A stretch of 64,000 nt of DNA from Acanthamoeba sp. SK_2022b (Eukaryota > Discosea > Longamoebia > Acanthamoebidae): positions 37,381 to 101,380 of the forward strand of contig JANDJZ010000175.1 of assembly GCA_027943245.1 (NCBI GenBank), in the 5' to 3' direction. A program made the position numbers and the translations under genes. The stretch's first letter is position 1. Each line of letters opens with the position of its first letter. The notes beneath the pieces were generated by a model. It saw nothing but the letters and a program-made list of their open reading frames with translations. It was not told where the DNA came from and made no database searches. This document shows, in pieces, positions 42,287-61,403 of the stretch.

Positions 42287-43865
42287 TTACTGCTGCTCGC
42301 GCGGGTTAAAGCCGCCCTTGCTCTTGGGCAGGTAGGCCCTCTTCTCGTGCAGCTCCCTCTCCATCCACCAGGTGGCGCCGTGGGGCATCTTCTTCTTGGC
42401 CTCCTCGAGATAAGCCTCGGCCTCCTCGAGCTTCCTGCGGGCCTCCTCGACGGCCTCCTCGGCCGCGGCCTTGGCCTGCTCGGAATGCTGCCTGGCTTGC
42501 TCCGCGCTGGCTCTCGCCTGCGACGCCTGGCGAGCTGCCTCCTCGGCGCTGGCCCTGGCCTGCGACGCCTGATGGGCGGCCTCCTCAGCCTGGGCTCTGC
42601 GCCACAGATCCAAAGAGTCAGTCGGTCGGTCGGCGGAGAGACTGTGAAGGAGAGAGGGGAGAGTAGAGTGGAGGAGGCACCTGGCCTGTTCGGCAGCGGC
42701 GCGGGCGGCCGAGGCCTGTTCGGTGGCCTCCTTGGCCGCCTGAGCAGCGCGATCGGCCTTCTTGACGGCAGCCTCCTGGGTGATCTTGGCGCGCCTCAAG
42801 GGAAGCGGGTCGGACGAGAGGTGCTGGGCGAGCTCGTTCTTGGCCTTGTTCTTCTGCACGATAGAGCCCTCCTCGGAGAGCCTCTGCAGCTCGGCTGTGC
42901 GGCCGTTGAAGGCGTCCTCCTGGGCCTTGAGCTCGTTGAGCGCGGCCTCGAGCTCGGCCTTGGCCGCCCGCAGCTCCTCCTCGCGCGTGCGGGCGTCGGC
43001 CTCGCGTGACTTGGCCTCCGACTCGGTACGCTTGGCCTCCTCCGCCGTGCGCTGGGCCTCGGCCTCACGCTTCTTGGCCTCGGCCTCGCGCTCCTTGGCG
43101 TCGGCCTCGCGGCGCTTCGCCTCGGCCTCCTGCGCGGTGGCAGCGCGGAGGGCCTCCGCGGCTTCCTGGTTGCGGGCCTCGGCCGCCGCAAACGCCTCCG
43201 ACACCTCGTCGAGGAACTTCTGCGCCTTGGCGATCTCCTCCCTGCTGCCCTGCAATCGAACAACCCAACAGCAACAGCAACAGCAACATCACAACCATAA
43301 CAACCATAACAAGAAGAAGGGTCAGCTCTCAACGTTCAACGCATGCAGCGAATAGGAGCCGATGAGAGGAGAGACCTGAGGAGCGTTGACGAGGGTGTGC
43401 CAGTCAGCGTTGTACTTGAAGATGAGGAGGTGCGTGAGCGGGACGCGCTTGACCTGGCCCACGATGGCCCCGGTGGACCTCAGCTTGTCACGCATAGCCT
43501 GCACAGTGAGGGTCTCTTTGAAGAACTCGAGGAAGCGGTGGGCCTGGAACTCGTCCAGGTCCGAACCCTCGGCACGCTTGGCCTCATCGAGCTCGACGGC
43601 CTTGTGCACGAACGACCACACCTTCTCGGCCTCCTTCTGCGCGAACTCCTGCTCGTACAAACTCCGTAAGTTAGCCCACGGGCACACGAGACTTCTAAAC
43701 AGTAAGAACGAAAAAAGCGACGAACGTCGCGAAAGATCGGATTTGTGGGTGGGTTTGGGGACTCCAGATGAGCAGAGTCATTGTTTTTTTTTTTTTTTTT
43801 TGTCTGTGTTTCATTGTTTTCCCAATGCATTGTGTTACGCTGTCTGGAGACTCGAGTCCCGACAT
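42287..43865 (-). CDS. Ala/Glu-rich coiled-coil protein with conserved N- and C-terminal boxes
   Basis: Function not recognised. An N-terminal ~110-residue helical region (SLYEQEFAQKEAEKVWSFVH, RFLEFFKETLTVQAMRDKL, GQVKRVPLTHLLIFKYNADW followed by HTLVNAPQ) precedes ~280 residues of coiled coil made of Ala/Glu/Lys/Arg heptads, including repeats of QASQARASAEEAARQ. It is broken by a more conserved patch (AQHLSSDPLPLRRAKITQEA) and ends with a compact box ATWWMERELHEKRAYLPKSK before the stop. The KYNxDWxxLV box followed by an Ala/Glu coiled coil resembles a group of amoebozoan cytoskeletal/calcium-response proteins, but I cannot name it. The ATG at 43865 (MSGLESPDS, then a GTAACA donor) is the best start candidate; the first splice junction is not resolved. 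Confidence 0.55.
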
Positions 43866-49187: not shown

Positions 49188-49986
49188 ATGCCGCGAGCGT
49201 TGTCCACCGCAGCTGCTCTTGTGATTGTCCTGCTCTTGGCACTCGAAGCGGGTACCGGTGGCACCTTCCCTTGCTGCCCCCTGGAGCGAAGAGGCTCAGA
49301 AAGGGGAAACGACGCGTTTGACACCTTACCCAACACAACTGTCGCGGGGGGTGTTGTGCAGTGGTGGGGTTCAACATGACGCTGCTGCACACACAAGACA
49401 CATACGGTTCGGTGGTGGCCGTCTCGAAGCAGAACGTTGCCTGCGCCCCCTTTGCCAACGGCACCTATCCCGCCAAATGCTACGGTGGCCTGGGCCGCCG
49501 CCTGACCTACATCAACGATGTGCGGGCCTCGCACACCAACGTGCTCCTCATCGACACTGGCAATTTCCTCACGGGTACGAAGAAGCCCGTTGACGCTTTT
49601 CCTTTCTTCGGTTTTCGATCCAACACACACACGAACATGTACAAAACTAGAAAGTGGAAGGGAACTCTCTCTCTCTCTCTCTCTTCTTACCCTTCTCACT
49701 GTGGTGGACCAACGTGGCAACGTCTGTGCAGACTCGCCTCTCGAGGCGGCTGGCGGACCGTTGGCCATCGGCCAGTTCTACAACACTCTCGGTGCGCTTG
49801 GGAGCTTTTCTTCTTACCCTCCTTGAGTCTCGTGTGCCATGACGATTTTGACAGCCGCAATATTGAAGAATCCAACGGTAACCGTCCGACCCCATGCAGG
49901 TTACGACGTTCTGAAGCTTGGGGACCACGACGTGGCAGACCCAGCAAAAGTACAAACGTCCTGGAGTCGCGTATTGGGGGAGGTTC

Positions 49987-50021
<35 letters not shown>

Positions 50022-53000
50022 GTGGTTGTTTTGACCATAGTCAGCGCTGTCTTGTGGGTGGGCGAAAGCACAGTTGGGCGAGTTCCTGAGTGCCGTGCCC
50101 AATGCCACCATCGTGTCGTCGAACCTCATCAACTCTCGTAACGATTCAAATCTTGGCAACTATTCCATCGCCACCTATGCCGTCCACACCTTTGCCGGAG
50201 GTGAACGCGTACGAGAGGCTCCCCATTCCGGTTTGCTTTCGCATTCGGCTCCCTGAGAGCTGATCCCTGGGATCAACGTTGTGCTGTCCGTCGGCGTGAC
50301 TCAGGTCGGCGTGTGCGGCGGCGTGACCCAGGCCATTCGGGTGAAGATAACCTCCGAGACACCCCTGGTATTGCTCCTTCCGCATCTCGTGGCGACTACT
50401 TTATCACTAGACGCGTGGTGGTGCTAAACGTCGTCCACTTCGTCGCGTGGTTAAAGGACTCCACAAGCGAGCTTCAGGCGCTCAAAGCCGCCGTTGGCAA
50501 GCTGACCAACCTTGGCGGTTCGCCTCATCCTGGATCGCCTGATTGCTACAGCCCCTCCGTGCAGGTGCTAACCGTGGTGGTGGTGGGTGGTGGGTGGTGG
50601 GTGGTGGGTGGTGGGTGGTGGGTGGTGGTGGGTGTGAACAGTGAACAAGATCATCGCAGCCATCTACGATGAGACGCTCTTGAGCACTGTCATAAGCGAT
50701 GTCGTGGGAATTGATGTGCTTGTGGTACACTCAGAGCTCTACATCACCAACCCCTCGGGTAGTTTTCCCATCTCCCAGCAGCCCTGCTCGTTTGGCCTGT
50801 ACGCTCACATTCACCTCCCACCTCCACCTGTTTTGTTCTGTTCTGTTCTGTTCTTGTTTTTTTTTTTTTTCTTTTTGCTTCTTTCCCTTGCCAGTGGTTC
50901 TGAACGATCAAGTAGTGGGCACATATCCAACGTATTACAACGTACGTTCGGTACTTGGTTGGCGAGCTTGCTTACCGATCACTAACCTTGTTTATATCAG
51001 GTGCCCTGGGGTCAGCCGGTGTTGGTGGTGGGCTCGGGGTCGTACGGCAAGTACATCAGCCAGCTCGACCTCGAGTTTGACCAATACGGAGTCATCACCT
51101 CTTGGGTAATTTGCTCATGTTACTCTGCATGCAGGCGGCGGAATTGGTAGAGTGGAGGTGCTCACCCTATTGATGACCTCACACGTGATCACCTGCGTTC
51201 TTAGGGCGGCGACTCGCACGTCTTGACTTCGAGCTATGCCGAGTCTGCTGCTGTGGAGGTTAGACACTGCCCGAACAGCCGATTAATCAGAAGCTGGCAT
51301 GATCGTGTACTAACCTTGTGTCCTGCTTACACAGAGCGACGTGGTCAGTTATTACACGAATGTGGTGGCTGCTCTGTACACTACACAAGTCGGTACAGCG
51401 GGAACCAACATCAGCTTCGAGTCGGGATGCATCTTCGTCGAGTGCACAATCGGCAGCTGGCAGGCAGACAAGATGCGCGAGGTGACCAACACATCGATTG
51501 GCCTCATCAACAGTGGAAGCATTGGGTACCCAGCGTGATGTAGGGGAGGAGGCATCTCGTTTACCGGGCCATCTGCACTCACTCTCTCTCTCTCTTCTCT
51601 CTCTCTTCTCTCTCTCTTCTTCCGTATCTGGGCATCCGCAGCGGCGGCTGGCAACAAGGGCCTATTATGGCTAGCGACGTGCAAACGGTCGTAAAGTATG
51701 GCCAGGACTTCATCTACACGATGAGCGTAACAGGTGCCGAGCTTCTTGTCGCGCTCGAGAACTCAGTGTCTAAGAGCAACACCGGACAGTTCCTCCAGGT
51801 CTGAATCTCGTCCACCACGGCCCACACGACCGCGTGCCTCAAGATGTTTTCACCTCACCACGCCTCTCTTGCACGAGCAGATTTCTGGCCTCAAATTCTC
51901 GTGGAACGCCGCGCAAGATGTCGGGTGGCGTGTGGTGAACGCATGGACGGTCGACTCCGCCGGCAGGACAAATCTGATTGACAACAGCACGCGCTACTCG
52001 ATCGCTCTCCTCGACTACGTAGCCAAAGGCGGCGATGGCTACACCGTGTTCGCCAACAACGGAACCAACGTCGTCAACACTGGCTATACGCTCAATCAAG
52101 TGGTCCTCCAGAAGCTGGCGGCCGAAACCGTGATACCTGGAATCAGCCCCAGGATCGTCAGCAGCACGGCCGTGAGGCGCTCATGCCTGGCCGAGGACGG
52201 CTCCCTGTGCAACAACAATGGCTTGTGCCTCGGCGGCGTGTGTCAATGCAATTCCGGCACTGCAGGTGGGTCGCATGGCAACTTCACGCTCTCGCTTCTT
52301 GTCCCTGCTGTGCCGAATGTTGCTAACGTCGTCCCCCCCCACTACGTATGTGCAGGTCCACATTGCGATCGGATCAGCTCCTCTGGATCGAGTGACAACA
52401 CCATAGCGATTGTGCTGGGCGTGGTGCTGCCTATAGTCTTCTTCCTGCTTGTCCTTACCTTGATCTGCGCCCTCCTCTTGTGGGGTTACATGAAGTACAA
52501 ACAGCCCAAGCTGGTCCTCAAGGTAAATGTGCTTTCAGCACGCCGCTTCGCCCCTTCCCCCAGGCTACAAAGTGTTCCAACAACTCATTCACGTCATCGG
52601 CATTTTTTTTTCAGGAACCCAACTACCAGGTGCTGGTGTGGCGCCGAGAATCGATGGAAGGAGAGAAGAAGGCCATCCTGCTCAAGAAGCTCAACGTTAA
52701 GGTGAGCGGTGTGCTTGAAAAGGTATTTTCATGCGACTCCCATCGATGCTGCCTTCGCAGTTGGTCTCGTGGGCTCAACTGTCTCTATACTGCTCAGTTC
52801 CTTATGAACAAGCACGTGGTCAAGGCCCTCAGTGGAGTGATCCATGTTCAGCGGGCGTACATCGACGAAGTGTCGGCAGCGATGGTGCTGGTGCACCAGT
52901 CGGCCAACAACGGCACCAAGCTGATCAAGACTCTATTGAAGCACGAGCTTCAGTCCGAGGACGAGAAAGTCTTGTTCCGCGAAGAGACGCTGGGTGTCAA

Positions 53001-54531
53001 GGCCTTCTCCGTATTCAGCCGTATGGTCGGCTTGCCTTACCTGTGGAGCGTGTTCGCCTATCCTATCGCAGAACTGGAAATGGCCAATAACGCCCACGTA
53101 CGCGCCACCGCCACCCTCCCCCGCCCTCGCGTCGTCTTCGCGTTCCTCTGCGTGCCCTCACACGTGTCTCCTGCGCGATCTCACGCAGGACGAGGCGGCT
53201 TCGCCTAGGATCAAGTCCAACGTTTCCGACAGCGATGCTGTCCCGCTGCAGAGCATATTTTCCATCACCAACACTATCGAGGTATCGCCTACGTAGTTCA
53301 ACTTTTAGTGAGTGGTTTTCCTCTATGGCCACAAGGACGGTGCTGATCGCCATCTTGGTTCCTCCACTCTCCACGCAGATCAACCCCAAGCACTTGGAGG
53401 AAGGCCAGGATGACTCCATCGGCAGGCTGCAGCTGGAGCTCATCCTTCAGAAATTGCTCTCCCGCATCGTCGACTCCCTTCCTCACTTTCCTCTGTACAA
53501 CCCGCTCTGGCGCGTGCGCTCGTCTTCTTCCCGATCGTGTGTTCTCTAATCCCTCCCTCCCTCCCTCCCTCCCTGTGTCGCCGCCGAACATTAAGGTACC
53601 TGCGGCAGCTATGCCACATGGTGTACGAGGACATGCGCTATGACCACCCTGACTACATCCACCGCGTGCTGGGCAACCTCATCTTCCTCCGCTTCATCGT
53701 ACGAGAGCCCCTAGACAGATTTTGTTTCCCCCCCCCCGCTAATCAACTCAGCTCCGTCTCTCCCCCGCGACTCTGGTCACAGTGTCCAGCACTGCTGGTA
53801 CCGCAAAACTACGGCCTCGCCAAGGAGCACACCCACGCGAGAACGCACCGCACGCTCATCCTCATCGCCAAGGTGCTTCAGAATCTGGCCAATAAGAACG
53901 ACTTCACCGGCAAGGAGGTGCGCCAGTATTCTTTTCTACAAAGCGCTCTTGATTCATGAATCCACATTTTTTTGCAGGAGTTTATGGAGTCCATGAATGG
54001 CTTCATCCACCGCAACATTGGCAAGGTATGCAAATCACCAAATGGCGCAATGATGAACTCCTTCTTCAGCATCTTCTGGCTGGAGAGAGCTGACGCCGTT
54101 GCCTACGCACACAGCTGGAGTCATTTTTCAATGGCCTGTGCGCGCCGACCGATGAACCCAGGTTTGGCGACCCACCGACTTCAATCGTGCCGCGGCAGTT
54201 CAAGAAGAAGGCAATGTTGGTCATGTACCAGTTTGTGCAATCGCATGGCAAGGAACTTCACGACGAGCTCAACGAGTTTCCTGCGTACGAAGTCAAGGTA
54301 GTTACTGTTTCTCCTCATCCTCCTCCTCCTCCTCCATCCTCCTCGTATTGGAAACTTACGGGCCTTGGCGGCCGGTATCAGGGCGCGCTGGATCAGCTCA
54401 AGTACCTCACGCAGGAGGTGGACGCACTGGACGACGACGAGGACGAGGACGAAGAGGGCAACGGCAGCAGCACAAGCGACCAAGACGAACTCGACAGGGC
54501 TGACGAAGGGGTCCTCACGCCCCGCCCGTAG
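49188..54531 (+). CDS. Receptor A: 5'-nucleotidase-like ectodomain, EGF, TM, RasGAP
   Basis: Type I membrane protein. Signal peptide MPRALSTAAALVIVLLLALE. Ectodomain follows CD73/UshA order: NMTLLHTQDTYG (normally HTNDxH), GGLGRRLTYINDV, VLLIDTGN, GYDVLKLGDHDVAD (normally LGNHEFD), VNKIIAAIYDE (normally IIALGHSG), GIDVLVVHSELY (normally VVGGHS), GKYISQLDLEFDQYGVI, CIFVECTIGSWQADKM, INSGSIG (normally NGGGIR), GQFLQISGLKFSW and YVAKGGDGYTVF. The first metal Asp, the Asp of IDTG, the dyad His (GDH) and HS are kept. DxH is DTY, the GHSG His is Tyr, and the substrate Arg is Gly. An EGF-like Cys cluster (CNNNGLCLGGVCQCNSG) precedes a TM helix (IVLGVVLPIVFFLLVLTLIC) and MKYK. The RasGAP domain has VLFREETLGVKAF (arginine finger), CHMVYEDMRYDHPDYI, NLIFLRFI then CPALLVPQ, and LIAKVLQNLANKNDF. 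The tail is acidic. Likely a ligand-sensing, Ras-inactivating receptor. Confidence 0.85.
50574..50634. repeat. GGTGGTGGGT minisatellite in a receptor A intron
   Basis: GT/GGG-rich tandem array with a ~7-10 bp period, just before the exon VNKIIAAIYDE. Confidence 0.8.
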
Positions 54532-54796
54532 TGGGCCGCTGCTGTCACACAGAACCGCGGTTCGAATGAATATCCATCTGTCGATCACGTGGCGACCTTT
54601 TGGCCCATTGGTTGATTCGGCCGAGATTGATCGACAGTTCCGCCGGTCGCGCGCGAATGGTGCTCCCACGTGGCTGTCATTTGTGTCAGAGGATAAGCGG
54701 TGAAGTTGCCTTTTGCAGCCCTCACTGTTGCTGGCATCTTGGCAGACACACCCCGTGACCCGACATTTGTAGCTCGTTCGACAACTGTCAGCCACC
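54532..54796. promoter_or_regulatory. Spacer between the two receptor genes
   Basis: 265 bp between the stop of receptor A and the ATG of receptor B on the same strand. It must contain the terminator of A and the promoter of B. No signal clearly recognised. Confidence 0.45.
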
Positions 54797-57700
54797 ATGG
54801 CCCCAACTGTTGGGGCATTAGGCTGTCTTCTTTCTTTTCTCTTGTGGTCTCCGTCGCTCGGTACTCCCCCCCCCCCCAAATTTACCCTTTTGACAACCCA
54901 TCTCTTGCGTCGTCGTCGCCTCTCTTCTAATCCCCCCTTCCTCCTTTTGTTCTTGAAGGGTGGGAGTTGACGTTGGTCCATTCAGGCGACACTTTCGGAG
55001 CAGTGGTTGCCGTCAACGTGGCCAACAACCCATGTGAGCCCACCAACTCGTCATACAGTTCGGACCTGCCCCTATGTCTGGGAGGAGTGGCCCGTCGTGC
55101 GGCACTCATCTCCCAGCTACGGAATACAAGCGCGCACACTCTCGTTGTTGACACAGGCAACATTCTCCCAGGTAACTTATCAATTATGGGCCCTGACCCA
55201 CTCTACTCTCCTTGTTCTCTGGGGGGTTGGCTGGGACTCCTTCTGGCTGCCGCGCTCACTTCTACCCGGCTTCTTCGCCCGTACACAGGAGCAAACTACT
55301 TCCTCTTCAGTCCCGAGCTGGTGACCAACTACACCAAGGATGTGGGCTACGACGTGGTCAAGCTCGACCTGTACGACATGCAGGGCGGCCTTGCCGTGGT
55401 ATTGTGCCGCTTAAGTGGCTCTGTTTTGGCCATTTCTTGCCCATTTCTAGTGGGCCCGACTTACGATGGCCGCATGGGCCGTGTGTCGCTCGTGCGAGTG
55501 CAGCTTAACTCGTTCTTGTCGGCAACCGGTACAGCCAACCGCACAGCAGCCGTGTGCTCCAATCTCGTGGGCATGCAAAACGAGTCTGCTCTTGCGAACG
55601 TGAGCATTCAGACGTACACCACCATCAGCTATTCCGATGGCGAGAACGTCGGGTTCGCCGGCACCATGCCCGCCAACATTGCCGGCCTTGTCTCTAACCC
55701 TGGCCGTCTGGTACCGCTCTTCCATTTGCTGCTATTGCAGTGGCCTCCCACGCTCCTCATATGTGGCCTCATATCTCTCTCCGCTAGGACTCGACCGACG
55801 AGATCACCGCGCTGCAGGTTGCAGTGGGCAGCCTGCTCAATGAAGGAGGTACGGCGGCGATCTTTCAGAACCTCACTGTTGTGTCTCTGAGAGAGAGAGA
55901 GACTCGAAACACGATGTGCAGTGAACAAGGTCGTGGTAGCCGTGAGCAACTCGCAGATAGTAGATCCCCTCGTACAACAGGTGCTCGGCATAGATGTGGT
56001 GCTCGTTCAGGGCCAGTTCTACGCCAACCAAAACGGTGAGCAACCCTGTTCGATGTTTCTTATCTGGAACGTTTAACTTTTTATTTTGTTTCAACACTGT
56101 TTACGTTGAGGCCAACCAATCGTGTGGTGTGCGTGGAGCAGATACCGGCACTCCTATCGGCCCGTACCCTGTGGTGAGGCAGCTACCGTGGAAACAGAAG
56201 GTGTGCATCGCCGGCGTGGGAGTGTGGGGTAAGTACTTGGGCAAGCTCGATATCGTGTTCGACGAGCACGGGGTGATCGAAAGCTGTTCTGGCGATGCCC
56301 TCCCCCTGGGCGATGACATTGCCCCAGTGTCTAGCATGCAGGTACCTCCAGCCAATCCATCAACGCCATCATGGCGAAGCTACAACAGATGTCTTACTTT
56401 CAAAAACCTCTTGAGGCGGAGGTGGAGCAAGACTACAACCGTTCGATGGCCGGCCTGAATCGAGTGATCGGATCGGCCGAGGTGCCACTTGATTACAACG
56501 TATGTCTGCTCGCTCCTTCGTGTTTCTGTCCCTCCTCTTGAATGATTGATTCTCATTAGACTATGCTGCGAACCAATGCACGAACCCTATCCTTGTGTTT
56601 ATTGTTTATTGTGACTCGAACAGCATCGCTGCATGTTTGGGGAGTGCGGTGTGGGCAGTTGGACCGCCGATCTCCTTAAGAAGGCTGGCCGGACTACTAT
56701 CGGCGTTGTAAATGGAGGCTCGTTTGGGTAAGTGTCCAGCTTGCTCTCCTTACATTATTCGTTGCTCCTCTCTCTCTCTCCCCCTCCTTCTCTCTTCTCA
56801 AAACTGATCGTAGGCATTCAGAGGGTCGATTGAAGTGGGCAATGTTAGCCTAGCGCAGTTTGTGAGATCGTTCCCGTTTCCAGCCGATCTTATCGTGACA
56901 ATGGACCTAAAGGGCAAGCACCTGCTCGAAATGCTCGAGCACTCGGTGTCTCTCGCCAACGAAACCTCGTTCGAGATCTCCCAGGGCATCGGCCGCTTTC
57001 TCCAGGTGACTGACCCATTTTATGAGGCTGGCCTGAAAGCAAGGAAGAAACGCGTCTCACCTATGCTCTTCAAACTGAGGTTTTTCCAGATATCTGGCAT
57101 GAAGTTTACCTTCAACGCGAAGGAGGAGATTGGCCTGCGTATCGTCAATGCGTGGGTTCAGGGACAAGGCTCGGCGCCCGAGACCAGCAAGAGAGCCATC
57201 GCTGCTACCTCCTGGGAGCTGGTTGACCCCGAGCGCGACTACTCCCTCACCACCATCAGTTACATCGCCAGCGGACAGGATGGCTACAGTGTCATCCCCG
57301 CCAACGCCCAAAACGTGCAAACCACAGTCCGCACGGCCGAGAACGTACAGGGGAGCCCTCTCCTTAATACGGTTTCCAAGTCACTTCGGTTGCCTCACAC
57401 GGGACCGGTTCTCTTGCTTCTTGGGTTGGGTGCAGGTCTACCGAGCTGGCTTTGCCGACGGACCGATTACGGGCTTCGACAAGGGGCTTATTGTAGCCAG
57501 CACGGCCTCGCGAAGGACCTGCATCCCCCCCGGGGACACGGAGCTTTGCAACCGGAACGGCAACTGCATTGAGGGCTCCTGCGAGTGCACCACCACCGGA
57601 GCCGGCGGTAGGTCGCCGCCAGTTTTCAATCGCTGCAGCATGCATCCCTCACCACCTGCACAATACACCTGTTTGGACAATGCAGGTGAGTTCTGCGAGA

Positions 57701-59723
57701 TCTCGCCGTCATCGTCGAGTCCAGATAACACTGTGGCCATTGCGTTGGGTGTCATCCTGCCGCTGGCCTCCATGGCGGTAGTGATCGCCGTGCTGATCGC
57801 CGTGCTCGTGTTGGGATACATGAAGTACAAACGACCGAAGCTCATTCTCAAGGTAAGCATCTATCCCTAATCCCTGTCCAAGTTCAAGGTAGCTCACATC
57901 GTGTTGCAGGAGCCCAACTATCAACTCTTAGTGTGGCGTCGAGATTCGATGGAGAGCGGCGGCGAGATCAAGATGCTGCCTATGCGACGCCTGAGCGTCA
58001 AGGTCCAGACAGTGCTCGAAGAGGTGACTCTCCTCGCTCGCTCTCTTGTCTGCATTGAAAAGGGGCGCGGCAGGCATGAAGGCTTTCACTTACACTGGTT
58101 CTGCTGGACCAGTTCTTGATGGATAAGCACGTGGTTCAGGCTATCGGCAACGTCTCCCACACCAAGTCTTCGTCCAGTGATGAAGTTGCTGCCGCCATGG
58201 TACACACCCACTCATCCCGGATCCAAAATCGATCGTCAGAGGCGCTTCTGACATAAATGGGGGTCCGGGTCCTTGCAGATGCTGGTCTACCAGTCGGCCG
58301 ATAAGGGCGTCGACCTGATCCGCCTGCTTCTAAAGAATGAGCTGATGGCTCTCGACGACGAGAAAGTCTTGTTCCGCGAGGACACGCCCGGCGTGCAGGC
58401 TTTCAATGTGTTCAGCAGGATGGTGGGCATGCCGTGGCTGTTCCACACGTTCGCGCTTCCTATCGCAGAGCTCGAGCTCGCCAACAACGCCCAGGTGCGC
58501 TGCGCCAGTGTTCGAGAATAACACAGCATGAGCTAACCCTACGTGTCTCTCCCTCTCTCTATTTCTCTCTTCGCTCCAGATCGGAAGTGGTCCTTCCAGG
58601 AGCAACGTAACCGATAGCGATCCATCTCCACTCGGGACCATATTCTCGCTAACCACGTCCGTCGAGGCACGCTCGCCCATTTACCTGATTTACACAGGTG
58701 GAGGGATGTCTGATATCTGTCTATCGTTGTAACCTCTCACAGATCAATCCAAAACACTTGGAGGAGGGCCAAGACAACTCCATCGGTAGGCTACAGCTGG
58801 AGCTTATCCTCCAGAAGCTCGCCACGCGCATATTCAGCTCTCTTCCCCACTTCCCGCTGTACGCTTCTCTCCTTTTCTCACTCGCCTTGCGGGCCTGACT
58901 CTTGCACCGCCGTACAGATACCTGAGACAGCTGTGCCATATGCTCTACGAGGACATGCGCTACGATCACCCAGACTATATCCACCGCGTGCTGGGCAACC
59001 TCATCTTCCTCCGATTCATCGTATGCGCATCGCCCCTGACCCCAACCTCGCTCGCTCTTCCTTGCTGACGGAACGGGCAAAATGTCATAGTGTCCAGCGC
59101 TGCTGGTCCCGCAGAACTATGGCCTGGTCAAGGGCGAGACGCATCCCAAGACCCATCGCACGCTCATCCTCATCGCCAAGGTGTTGCAGAACTTGGCCAA
59201 CAAGAACGATTTCAGCGGTAAGGAGCAATTCATGGAAGTCATGAACGGCTTTATTCAGCGTAACGTCGGCAAGGTGCTCTCCCTTCCCAAGAGGATTGAT
59301 AAGACTATGAATACAAGCCTGACTGACATCAAAATGATTGCCGGCTTGCTTACTCCAGTTGGAGGAGTTCTTCAACGGCCTGTGCGCACCAGCCGATGAG
59401 CCCCAATTTGGAGACCCACCCACTTCCATTGTACCGCGGCAGTTCCGCAAGAAGGCGCTCATGCTCCTGTACCAGTTCGTGCGATCCCACGGCAAGGAGA
59501 TCCACGAAGAGTTGAGCGAGTTCCCTCCATACGCGGTTCAGGTGCGTTTAGCTGATTAGTGCCCGGATGGGGAGGCAGTGCGCGCGCGCAGTGAAGCGAT
59601 AGTTAAGTCGGTGGTGTGCAGGAATCTCTCGCGCGGCTCAAATACATCACACGAGATGTCAACGTGCGCGACTTGGTCAGCGATGAGAGCGAGAGTGAAT
59701 CCGAAGAGGAAGGCAGCCGATGA
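54797..59723 (+). CDS. Receptor B: degenerate 5'-nucleotidase-like ectodomain, EGF, TM, RasGAP
   Basis: Tandem paralogue of receptor A with the same domain order. Signal peptide MAPTVGALGCLLSFLLWSPS, joined across a ~97-bp intron to GWELTLVHSGDTFGAVVAV. Ectodomain blocks: CLGGVARRAALISQLR, LVVDTGN, GYDVVKLDLYDMQGG, VNKVVVAVSNSQIVD, GIDVVLVQGQFY, YLGKLDIVFDEHGVI, CMFGECGVGSWTADLL, VVNGGSFG, GRFLQISGMKFTF and YIASGQDGYSVI. Compared with active enzymes, DxH is DTF, the NHE dyad is LYD, GHSG is SNSQ, GGHS is VQGQ and the NGGGIR Arg is Gly, so hydrolysis is very unlikely. The EGF-like module (CNRNGNCIEGSCECTTTGAG), TM helix and MKYKRPK juxtamembrane follow. RasGAP is intact: VLFREDTPGVQAF, NLIFLRFI then CPALLVPQNYGL, and IAKVLQNLANKNDFSGKE. 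Ends with an acidic SDESESESEEEGSR tail. Predicted pseudoenzyme receptor acting on Ras. Confidence 0.85.
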
Positions 59724-61013: not shown

Positions 61014-61376
61014 TCAGAACAGATTTGCCTGGAGTAGGAAAGCCTCAACACATTCAAGGGCAATTCCCATCTGGTCAAAAGGCTCCCAGCTGTTAAAGTC
61101 AGCTGAGTAGCCAGCCCACTTGACCAGGACTTCCAGCTGTCCAGCCTTGCCAACTCTGATCTGCTGTATCTCTTCCACTTCACCATAGACCTCTTCCACC
61201 TCATCTTCCTCCTCTTCCTCTTCTACCTCCTCTTCCTCTTCTACCTCCTCTTCCTCTTCTTCCTCTGCTTCCTCTTCTTCCTCCTTCTTCCTCCTCTTCT
61301 GCTGTCTTCTCTTGTGGCCAGAGATGGCCTCCCACTGACTGTCATCAGCAGTGACTCTGGCCTGGCGTTTCTTCAT
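61014..61376 (-). CDS. Chromodomain protein/segment, copy 1
   Basis: MKKRQARVTADDSQWEAISG and a basic patch (HKRRQQKRRKK), then ~35 residues of Glu low complexity, then a chromodomain: VYGEVEEIQQIRVGKAGQLE continuing VLVKWAGYSADFNSWEPFDQ and MGIALECVEAFL. The VKWxGY..xxNSWEP core and two of the cage aromatics (Trp, Tyr) are visible, so methyl-lysine histone binding is plausible. The frame is open upstream for ~38 residues except one TAG (61404-61406) and joins the last recombinase exon. It is therefore probably the C-terminal domain of the recombinase, or a separate ORF of the same mobile unit. Confidence 0.65.
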   Translation of the reverse strand: MKKRQARVTADDSQWEAISGHKRRQQKRRKKEEEEEAEEEEEEEVEEEEEVEEEEEEDEVEEVYGEVEEIQQIRVGKAGQLEVLVKWAGYSADFNSWEPFDQMGIALECVEAFLLQANLF

Positions 61377-61403
61377 GTTGACTCTCTGGGCCTTGGCCTC
61401 TGG

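Follow-up and report, generated by a model that had tools for sequence, protein, structure and literature searches.

A predicted Acanthamoeba receptor type joining a degenerate nucleotidase-like ectodomain to a cytoplasmic RasGAP domain

In Acanthamoeba castellanii, 67 nucleotidyl cyclases have been reported in which an extracellular receptor domain and one transmembrane (TM) helix precede a cyclase placed between two kinase domains (Clarke et al. 2013, PMC4053784). Another account assigns 66 of the 67 in A. castellanii, and 43 in Physarum, to this kinase-cyclase-kinase type (PMC4758236), and giant viruses infecting amoebae are reported to carry the same configuration (PMC4053784). A second point of comparison is offered by the plexins of animals, in which dimerisation induced by semaphorin reportedly activates a cytoplasmic GTPase-activating protein (GAP) domain acting on Rap (PMC3787391). 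Here, two neighbouring genes, gene 1 (g1) and gene 2 (g2), are described from a window of 64,000 nucleotides of Acanthamoeba sp. SK_2022b (assembly GCA_027943245.1, contig JANDJZ010000175.1, positions 37,381 to 101,380), which, like the kinase-cyclase-kinase receptors, encode an extracellular domain and a single TM helix, but whose output is a RasGAP domain and not two kinases around a cyclase. Neither the word RasGAP nor the word nucleotidase appears in the main text of PMC4053784, and no description of a receptor type with a RasGAP tail was found in the titles and abstract openings of the open-licence papers listed by literature searches.

Gene 1 (window positions 49188 to 54531; 24 exons, 1047 amino acids (aa)) and gene 2 (54797 to 59723; 22 exons, 1050 aa) were modelled by hand splicing, with complete open frames, and lie, like all their features given below, on the forward strand; the g1 ATG starts at 49188, the g2 stop codon ends at 59723, and 265 bp separate the g1 stop from the g2 ATG. 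In these models all 23 introns of g1 and 20 of the 21 of g2 are of the GT-AG type, the remaining one (58667 to 58742) having a GC donor (after 58666) and an AG acceptor, and intron length is a multiple of three in 8/23 and 5/21 cases, respectively. The two proteins can be aligned over nearly their full length with 509 of 1038 positions identical (49%), and both share their domain layout with a third gene outside the window, g3 (contig C1002; 23 exons, 1071 aa). That 13 intron positions, together with their phase and across both halves of the genes, are common to g1, g2 and g3 (23, 21 and 22 introns, respectively) speaks against a chance arrangement. In particular, g1 exon 15 (52356 to 52522) runs uninterrupted from the last cysteine of an EGF-like module through the TM helix (52409 to 52474) into the start of the juxtamembrane segment, g2 exon 13 (57686 to 57852; TM helix 57739 to 57810) holds the same three elements, and a TM exon with the EGF end and the tail start is also found in g3. 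The exon structure therefore confirms that g1 and g2 are each a complete single gene joining an ectodomain to a RasGAP domain, and that the TM segment is part of the coding gene, as had been claimed in an earlier note made from the sequence alone.

The order of domains proposed in that note for both paralogues, namely signal peptide, nucleotidase-like ectodomain, EGF-like module, one TM helix and RasGAP, is likewise upheld by the complete gene models, Pfam, matches to PDB chains and hydropathy. In g1 the predicted signal peptide (49188 to 49369, aa 1-24, with an estimated cleavage site and a hydrophobic stretch at aa 5-23) is split by intron 1; in g2 a signal-peptide-like N terminus (54797 to 54859, aa 1-21) was assigned by sequence and lies under the hydropathy threshold used. 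It is followed by a degenerate N-terminal domain of the ectodomain (g1: 49370 to 51240, aa 25-330, metallophosphoesterase-like by phmmer matches to PDB 5'-nucleotidases; g2: 54860 to 56421, aa 22-325) and by a 5_nucleotid_C domain (PF02872; g1: 51425 to 52054, aa 367-510, 4.8e-29; g2: 56464 to 57293, aa 340-515, 2.3e-26), for which g1, g2 and g3 score 101.9, 93.2 and 100.8 bits against a curated cut-off of 23.6. Over aa 25-517 the g1 protein matches a venom 5'-nucleotidase of the PDB from end to end (2.7e-39, phmmer), other PDB 5'-nucleotidases, CD73 entries among them, match over a nearly equal span, and the picture is the same for g2, which also matches RasGAP structures. The EGF-like module (g1: 52184 to 52366, aa 554-584; g2: 57520 to 57696, aa 570-602) has six cysteines and stays below the Pfam cut-offs in g1, g2 and g3 (sub-threshold EGF_Teneurin and EGF_2 in g1, EGF_integrin in g2); in a fourth receptor gene, g4, it exceeds two of them. 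Each of the two proteins has one strong TM peak (3.17 in g1, 2.97 in g2), with all remaining internal peaks at or below 1.74. Taken together, these features support g1 and g2 as type I single-pass receptor-like proteins, which presumably reside in the membrane.

The predicted cytoplasmic output is a RasGAP domain (PF00616), located in g1 at 52921 to 53893 (aa 714-913, 2.7e-25) with the arginine finger R733 at 52978-52980 and the FLR motif at 53684-53692, and in g2 at 58315 to 59201 (aa 734-932, 4.2e-25) with R754 at 58375-58377 and FLR at 59006-59014. PF00616 is matched above its curated cut-off of 28.3 bits in all four receptors (77.9-89.9 bits), each of which contains the arginine finger (VLFRE), FLRFICPALLVPQ and QNLA motifs. 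Among PDB entries the g1 tail matches SynGAP, p120GAP, neurofibromin and IQGAP, and the g2 motifs align with TLFR and FLRLICPA of p120GAP, an alignment with SynGAP being obtained as well. Since finger and FLR motif are kept in alignment with p120GAP and SynGAP, the domain is apparently catalytically competent. The tails thus resemble p120GAP, SynGAP and neurofibromin in their RasGAP core, including the arginine finger and the FLR motif; none of these three is known as a single-pass receptor.

The ectodomain presents a different picture. Of the Pfam families by which the earlier note had suggested checking the architecture, 5_nucleotid_C and RasGAP were matched far above cut-off, but Metallophos (PF00149) was without a match in g1, g2 and g3. 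In 15 rows aligned with MAFFT, of which the amoebal rows L012 and L013 are without the N-terminal motifs, we compared the residues that we take to be the dimetal ligands of the 5'-nucleotidase motifs. The first metal-site aspartate is present in all three receptors; the histidine two residues further on is replaced by Y, F and F in g1, g2 and g3, the bridging aspartate by asparagine in all three, and the asparagine of GNH by D, L and L, the histidine next to it being retained in g1 only. The histidine of the fourth motif is gone in 3/3; in the last motif MAFFT shows no histidine in 3/3, but phmmer places one of g1 there, so that g1 may keep it. As controls, P0004 is intact at all eight checked columns, and a UshA-type protein on contig C536 has intact motifs except for a glutamine in the extra last column, with its fourth-motif histidine offset by one column; P0003 is itself partly degenerate at the metal motifs. 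Because key metal ligands are replaced and Metallophos is not matched, we consider the ectodomain of g1-g3 a pseudo-nucleotidase that, by its sequence, has lost its metal site, and an active 5'-nucleotidase was rejected as the default reading on the same two grounds. Degenerate metal motifs also occur in five of seven further amoebal ectodomains, namely those that bear the motifs (L009, L010, L011, L014 and L015).

The C-terminal domain retains an aromatic pair (Y or F at both positions) and the aspartate of GGDGY in 3/3 receptors, but the columns of two arginines that presumably contact the nucleotide in CD73 are replaced in 3/3, with an arginine nearby in g3; one of the two is kept in four other rows (L009, L010, L012 and L011, the last cut off by a contig end). 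A nucleoside-like ligand is therefore possible but without positive support, and the suggestion of the earlier note that an extracellular nucleotide might be the signal finds no backing in view of the replaced metal ligands and arginines; other ligands, for which the note had also made room, may still apply. Compared with CD73 and UshA, g1-g3 have two-domain homology by sequence and a CxFxEC cysteine pair as in the aligned PDB chain, but differ in their replaced metal site and nucleotide-contacting arginines and in having a TM helix instead of the glycosylphosphatidylinositol anchor by which CD73 is attached to the membrane. Apart from this, the C536 protein (L033, C536:13501-15600), encoded by a single exon, is a bacterial-looking 5'-nucleotidase of the UshA type with intact metal motifs, and its contig may represent bacterial DNA contaminating the assembly or the result of a transfer.

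The assembly (44.9 Mb, 1129 contigs) was searched for further relatives, one scan scoring 68 of 86 candidates and another 77 of 77, and 23 stretches were read; as the automatic spliced aligner did not exactly reproduce the g2 model, the multi-exon models obtained with it (L014, L015 and the other RasGAP genes) are approximate. The pseudo-nucleotidase ectodomain was found at at least 10 loci: g1, g2, g3, L011 and six loci (L009, L010, L012, L013, L014, L015) at which an ectodomain-EGF-TM unit as in g1 and g2 is joined to two kinase domains, the ectodomain of L012 and L013 being obtained without its earlier part. Six further contigs have a 5_nucleotid_C match, the UshA-like C536 among them. As an observation in its own right, the ectodomain of L009, L010 and L011 reads as a single exon, unlike that of the intron-rich L014, L015 and g1-g3.

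Four intact RasGAP receptors were found, g3 and g4 lying outside the window, and none of them has a Pfam match to a kinase or cyclase. The fourth, g4 (contig C1116; 6 exons, 1189 aa), combines a RasGAP tail like that of g1-g3 with a PBP_like_2 ectodomain (phosphate-binding-protein-like, PBP-like), and its first exon (2487 bp) covers the signal peptide, the TM helix and all between them, and extends into the juxtamembrane segment. The ectodomains most closely related to that of g4, on contigs C51 (51%), C708 (47%) and C275 (45%), lead into kinase domains in turn, the C275 contig holding only part of the first kinase, and further PBP-like ectodomains are also found with kinases. Two ectodomains that have no Pfam family in common, pseudo-nucleotidase and PBP-like, are thus each found with RasGAP and with kinase outputs. 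The layout of g1 and g2, real and unusual as it is, therefore appears to belong to a larger receptor class in which the output has been swapped, RasGAP for kinases.

Giant viruses also encode members of this class. With the 7993 best candidates of the database scored, g2 is closest to the cedratvirus kinases P0001 (36%) and P0002 (35%), over 58% of its length; both viral proteins have two kinase domains and no RasGAP match, and both show a loss of metal ligands as in g1-g3. A third such cedratvirus protein, P0005, bears the source name 'serine-threonine/tyrosine kinase fused to nucleotidase'. Viral ectodomains group among those of the amoebal kinase side, beside the intron-rich L015 and L014 (90/84, 88/90; in an earlier tree 91/87, 95/96), a placement that fits capture from a host. 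No relative turned up when viral contigs were scanned with P0001 and P0002, and in the protein database no match was named as eukaryotic among 4 + 59 matches, several of them unnamed (7993 best candidates scored per search).

The earlier note, whose author knew of no characterised receptor of this layout, missed the kinase siblings of this amoeba and of cedratviruses and the two RasGAP receptors beyond the window, none of which its author could see, as well as the plexin precedent for a receptor with its own GAP. Plexins share with g1 and g2 the single-pass receptor with its own cytoplasmic GAP, the layout of the latter being known by sequence only; they are, unlike g1 and g2, semaphorin receptors. 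Neither the plexin cytoplasmic family nor Sema has a Pfam match up to E 10 in g1 and g2. Membership of the plexins was rejected on the missing match to their family, so that the resemblance would be one of working principle.

As to gene history, the RasGAP tails of g1-g4 cluster together (100/99), five RasGAP regions from further genes of the assembly falling outside this clade, in a tree that was built without the long-branched L020. The ectodomain tree, which was built without L012, L013, P0003 and P0004, joins g2 with g3 (100/100) and rejects g1 with g2 (p-AU, approximately unbiased test, 7.2e-05); the tail tree, in turn, joins g1 with g2 (86/99) and rejects g2 with g3 (p-AU 0.00036), the tested clades having been named after earlier trees had been seen. 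In 50-column windows from column 650 onwards, identity between g1 and g2 exceeds that between g2 and g3 only at columns 850-1050, i.e. in the RasGAP core, and the ectodomain windows with the same excess are columns 150-200 and, barely, 600-650. The two halves of g2 may differ in history; the modest reading of this pattern is possible partial gene conversion between the neighbours g1 and g2, rather than an exchange at the TM segment. Tail identity is 67.5-71.9% among g1-g3 and 63.7-74.6% between g4 and g1-g3, compared with 34.3-55.3% for the ectodomains of g1-g3. The ratio of nonsynonymous to synonymous substitution rates (dN/dS, NG86), a rough measure here since dS exceeds 1, is 0.17-0.19 for the tails and 0.24-0.59 for the ectodomains, as would be expected of a retained output and a diversifying sensor.

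These observations are together best explained, with a probability of roughly 0.6, by pseudo-nucleotidase type I receptors with a ligand-controlled RasGAP that arose by an exchange of outputs with kinase receptors. According to this scheme, the nucleotidase fold without its metal site would serve as a ligand-binding or dimerisation module, which the EGF-like stalk and the TM helix would link to the juxtamembrane segment and to a RasGAP equipped for catalysis. Binding of a ligand, or its loss, would alter the pairing or orientation of the receptors and hence either the activity of the GAP or its position, so that Ras-GTP would be removed locally at the membrane. An exchange of outputs between the Acanthamoeba kinase-cyclase-kinase receptors and a RasGAP module is proposed as the origin because the ectodomain-EGF-TM layout is common to the RasGAP and the kinase receptors. 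Membrane location, ligand dependence, receptor pairing, Ras as the substrate, the direction of the regulation and the order in which the two outputs appeared are what we infer here. Two points weigh against this explanation. First, no cyclase was matched by Pfam in any of four tested middle segments of the kinase siblings (0/4), for which reason their designation as kinase-cyclase-kinase receptors rests on the literature. Second, a clade of the g1, g2 and g3 ectodomains was neither shown nor rejected (p-AU 0.167), so that the ectodomain of g1 need not share its origin with those of g2 and g3.

Among the rival explanations, a constitutive membrane-anchored RasGAP, in which the ectodomain would only place or retain the GAP by adhesion, sorting or membrane patches and activity would be independent of a ligand, is unlikely, although a conserved GAP module next to a fast-diverging ectodomain for which no ligand is known would be compatible with it. 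However, the same ectodomain family occurs with kinase outputs at 6 loci, which sensing explains more easily than anchoring alone. It is also conceivable, though rather improbable, that the GAP targets Rap or some other small GTPase related to Ras, or that it binds Ras without catalysis; the action of the plexin GAP on Rap offers a precedent, but the closest solved relatives of the tails are p120GAP, SynGAP and NF1, finger and FLR are present, and the plexin family is not matched. That the ectodomain is still an enzyme, a nucleotidase or another phosphoesterase whose hydrolysis would be coupled to Ras, might be argued from its end-to-end homology to 5'-nucleotidases, from the first aspartate, the aromatic pair and the C-terminal aspartate kept in g1-g3, and from one histidine of the third motif and, in one alignment, a last-motif histidine of g1. 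With the second-position histidine, the bridging aspartate and the GNH asparagine replaced in 3/3 receptors but kept in the P0004 and C536 UshA controls, and with Metallophos unmatched, we regard this as highly improbable. Finally, an erroneous fusion of two equally oriented genes, one for the ectodomain and one for the RasGAP part, which might be suspected as splice sites were placed by hand from genomic sequence with guidance by paralogues, is hardly credible given the TM exons spanning the EGF end and tail start in g1-g3, the 13 common intron positions and the one-exon continuity of g4, on which grounds two separate genes were rejected.

Elsewhere in the window, an open frame with a chromodomain (PF00385) lies downstream of the gene pair on the minus strand (61014-61403), and a long charged coiled-coil-like open frame with an F_actin_bund_C domain (PF18060) is found at 42287-43288, also on the minus strand. 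On two other contigs, broken pieces resembling the g2 RasGAP tail occur on the minus strand at about 4517-5808 of L018 (C388:86001-91848) and about 2708-3813 of L019 (C728:27001-32815), those of L018 continuing into sequence that resembles a g2 intron, and both look like decayed segmental copies of g2. Of four profilin genes read in the assembly, the one compared has its best matches in the PDB profilin II, IA and I entries 1f2k, 1prq and 1acf, which come from Acanthamoeba castellanii; the best pair, by visual count, agrees at 113 of 125 positions, in keeping with a genome of Acanthamoeba.

In Dictyostelium, likewise an amoeba, the RasGAP NF1 is reported to control macropinocytosis and phagocytosis (PMC4374526). 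Tentatively, and with the proposal taken as a whole doubtful, Acanthamoeba might have a plexin-like signalling of its own, in which an extracellular cue received by a dead nucleotidase or PBP-like ectodomain would directly switch Ras off in the patch of membrane that it reaches and so steer feeding or motility; sisters with the same ectodomain would fire kinases, and giant viruses carrying the kinase sister may act on the same cue. One ectodomain is found with a kinase or a RasGAP output and one RasGAP tail with two unrelated ectodomains, and these varied combinations of sensor and output modules make tests of ligand and output by chimeric receptors directly possible. If the proposal holds, these genes of a single-celled predator would provide, beside the plexins, a non-animal case in which the receptor itself serves as the GAP of a Ras-family GTPase.

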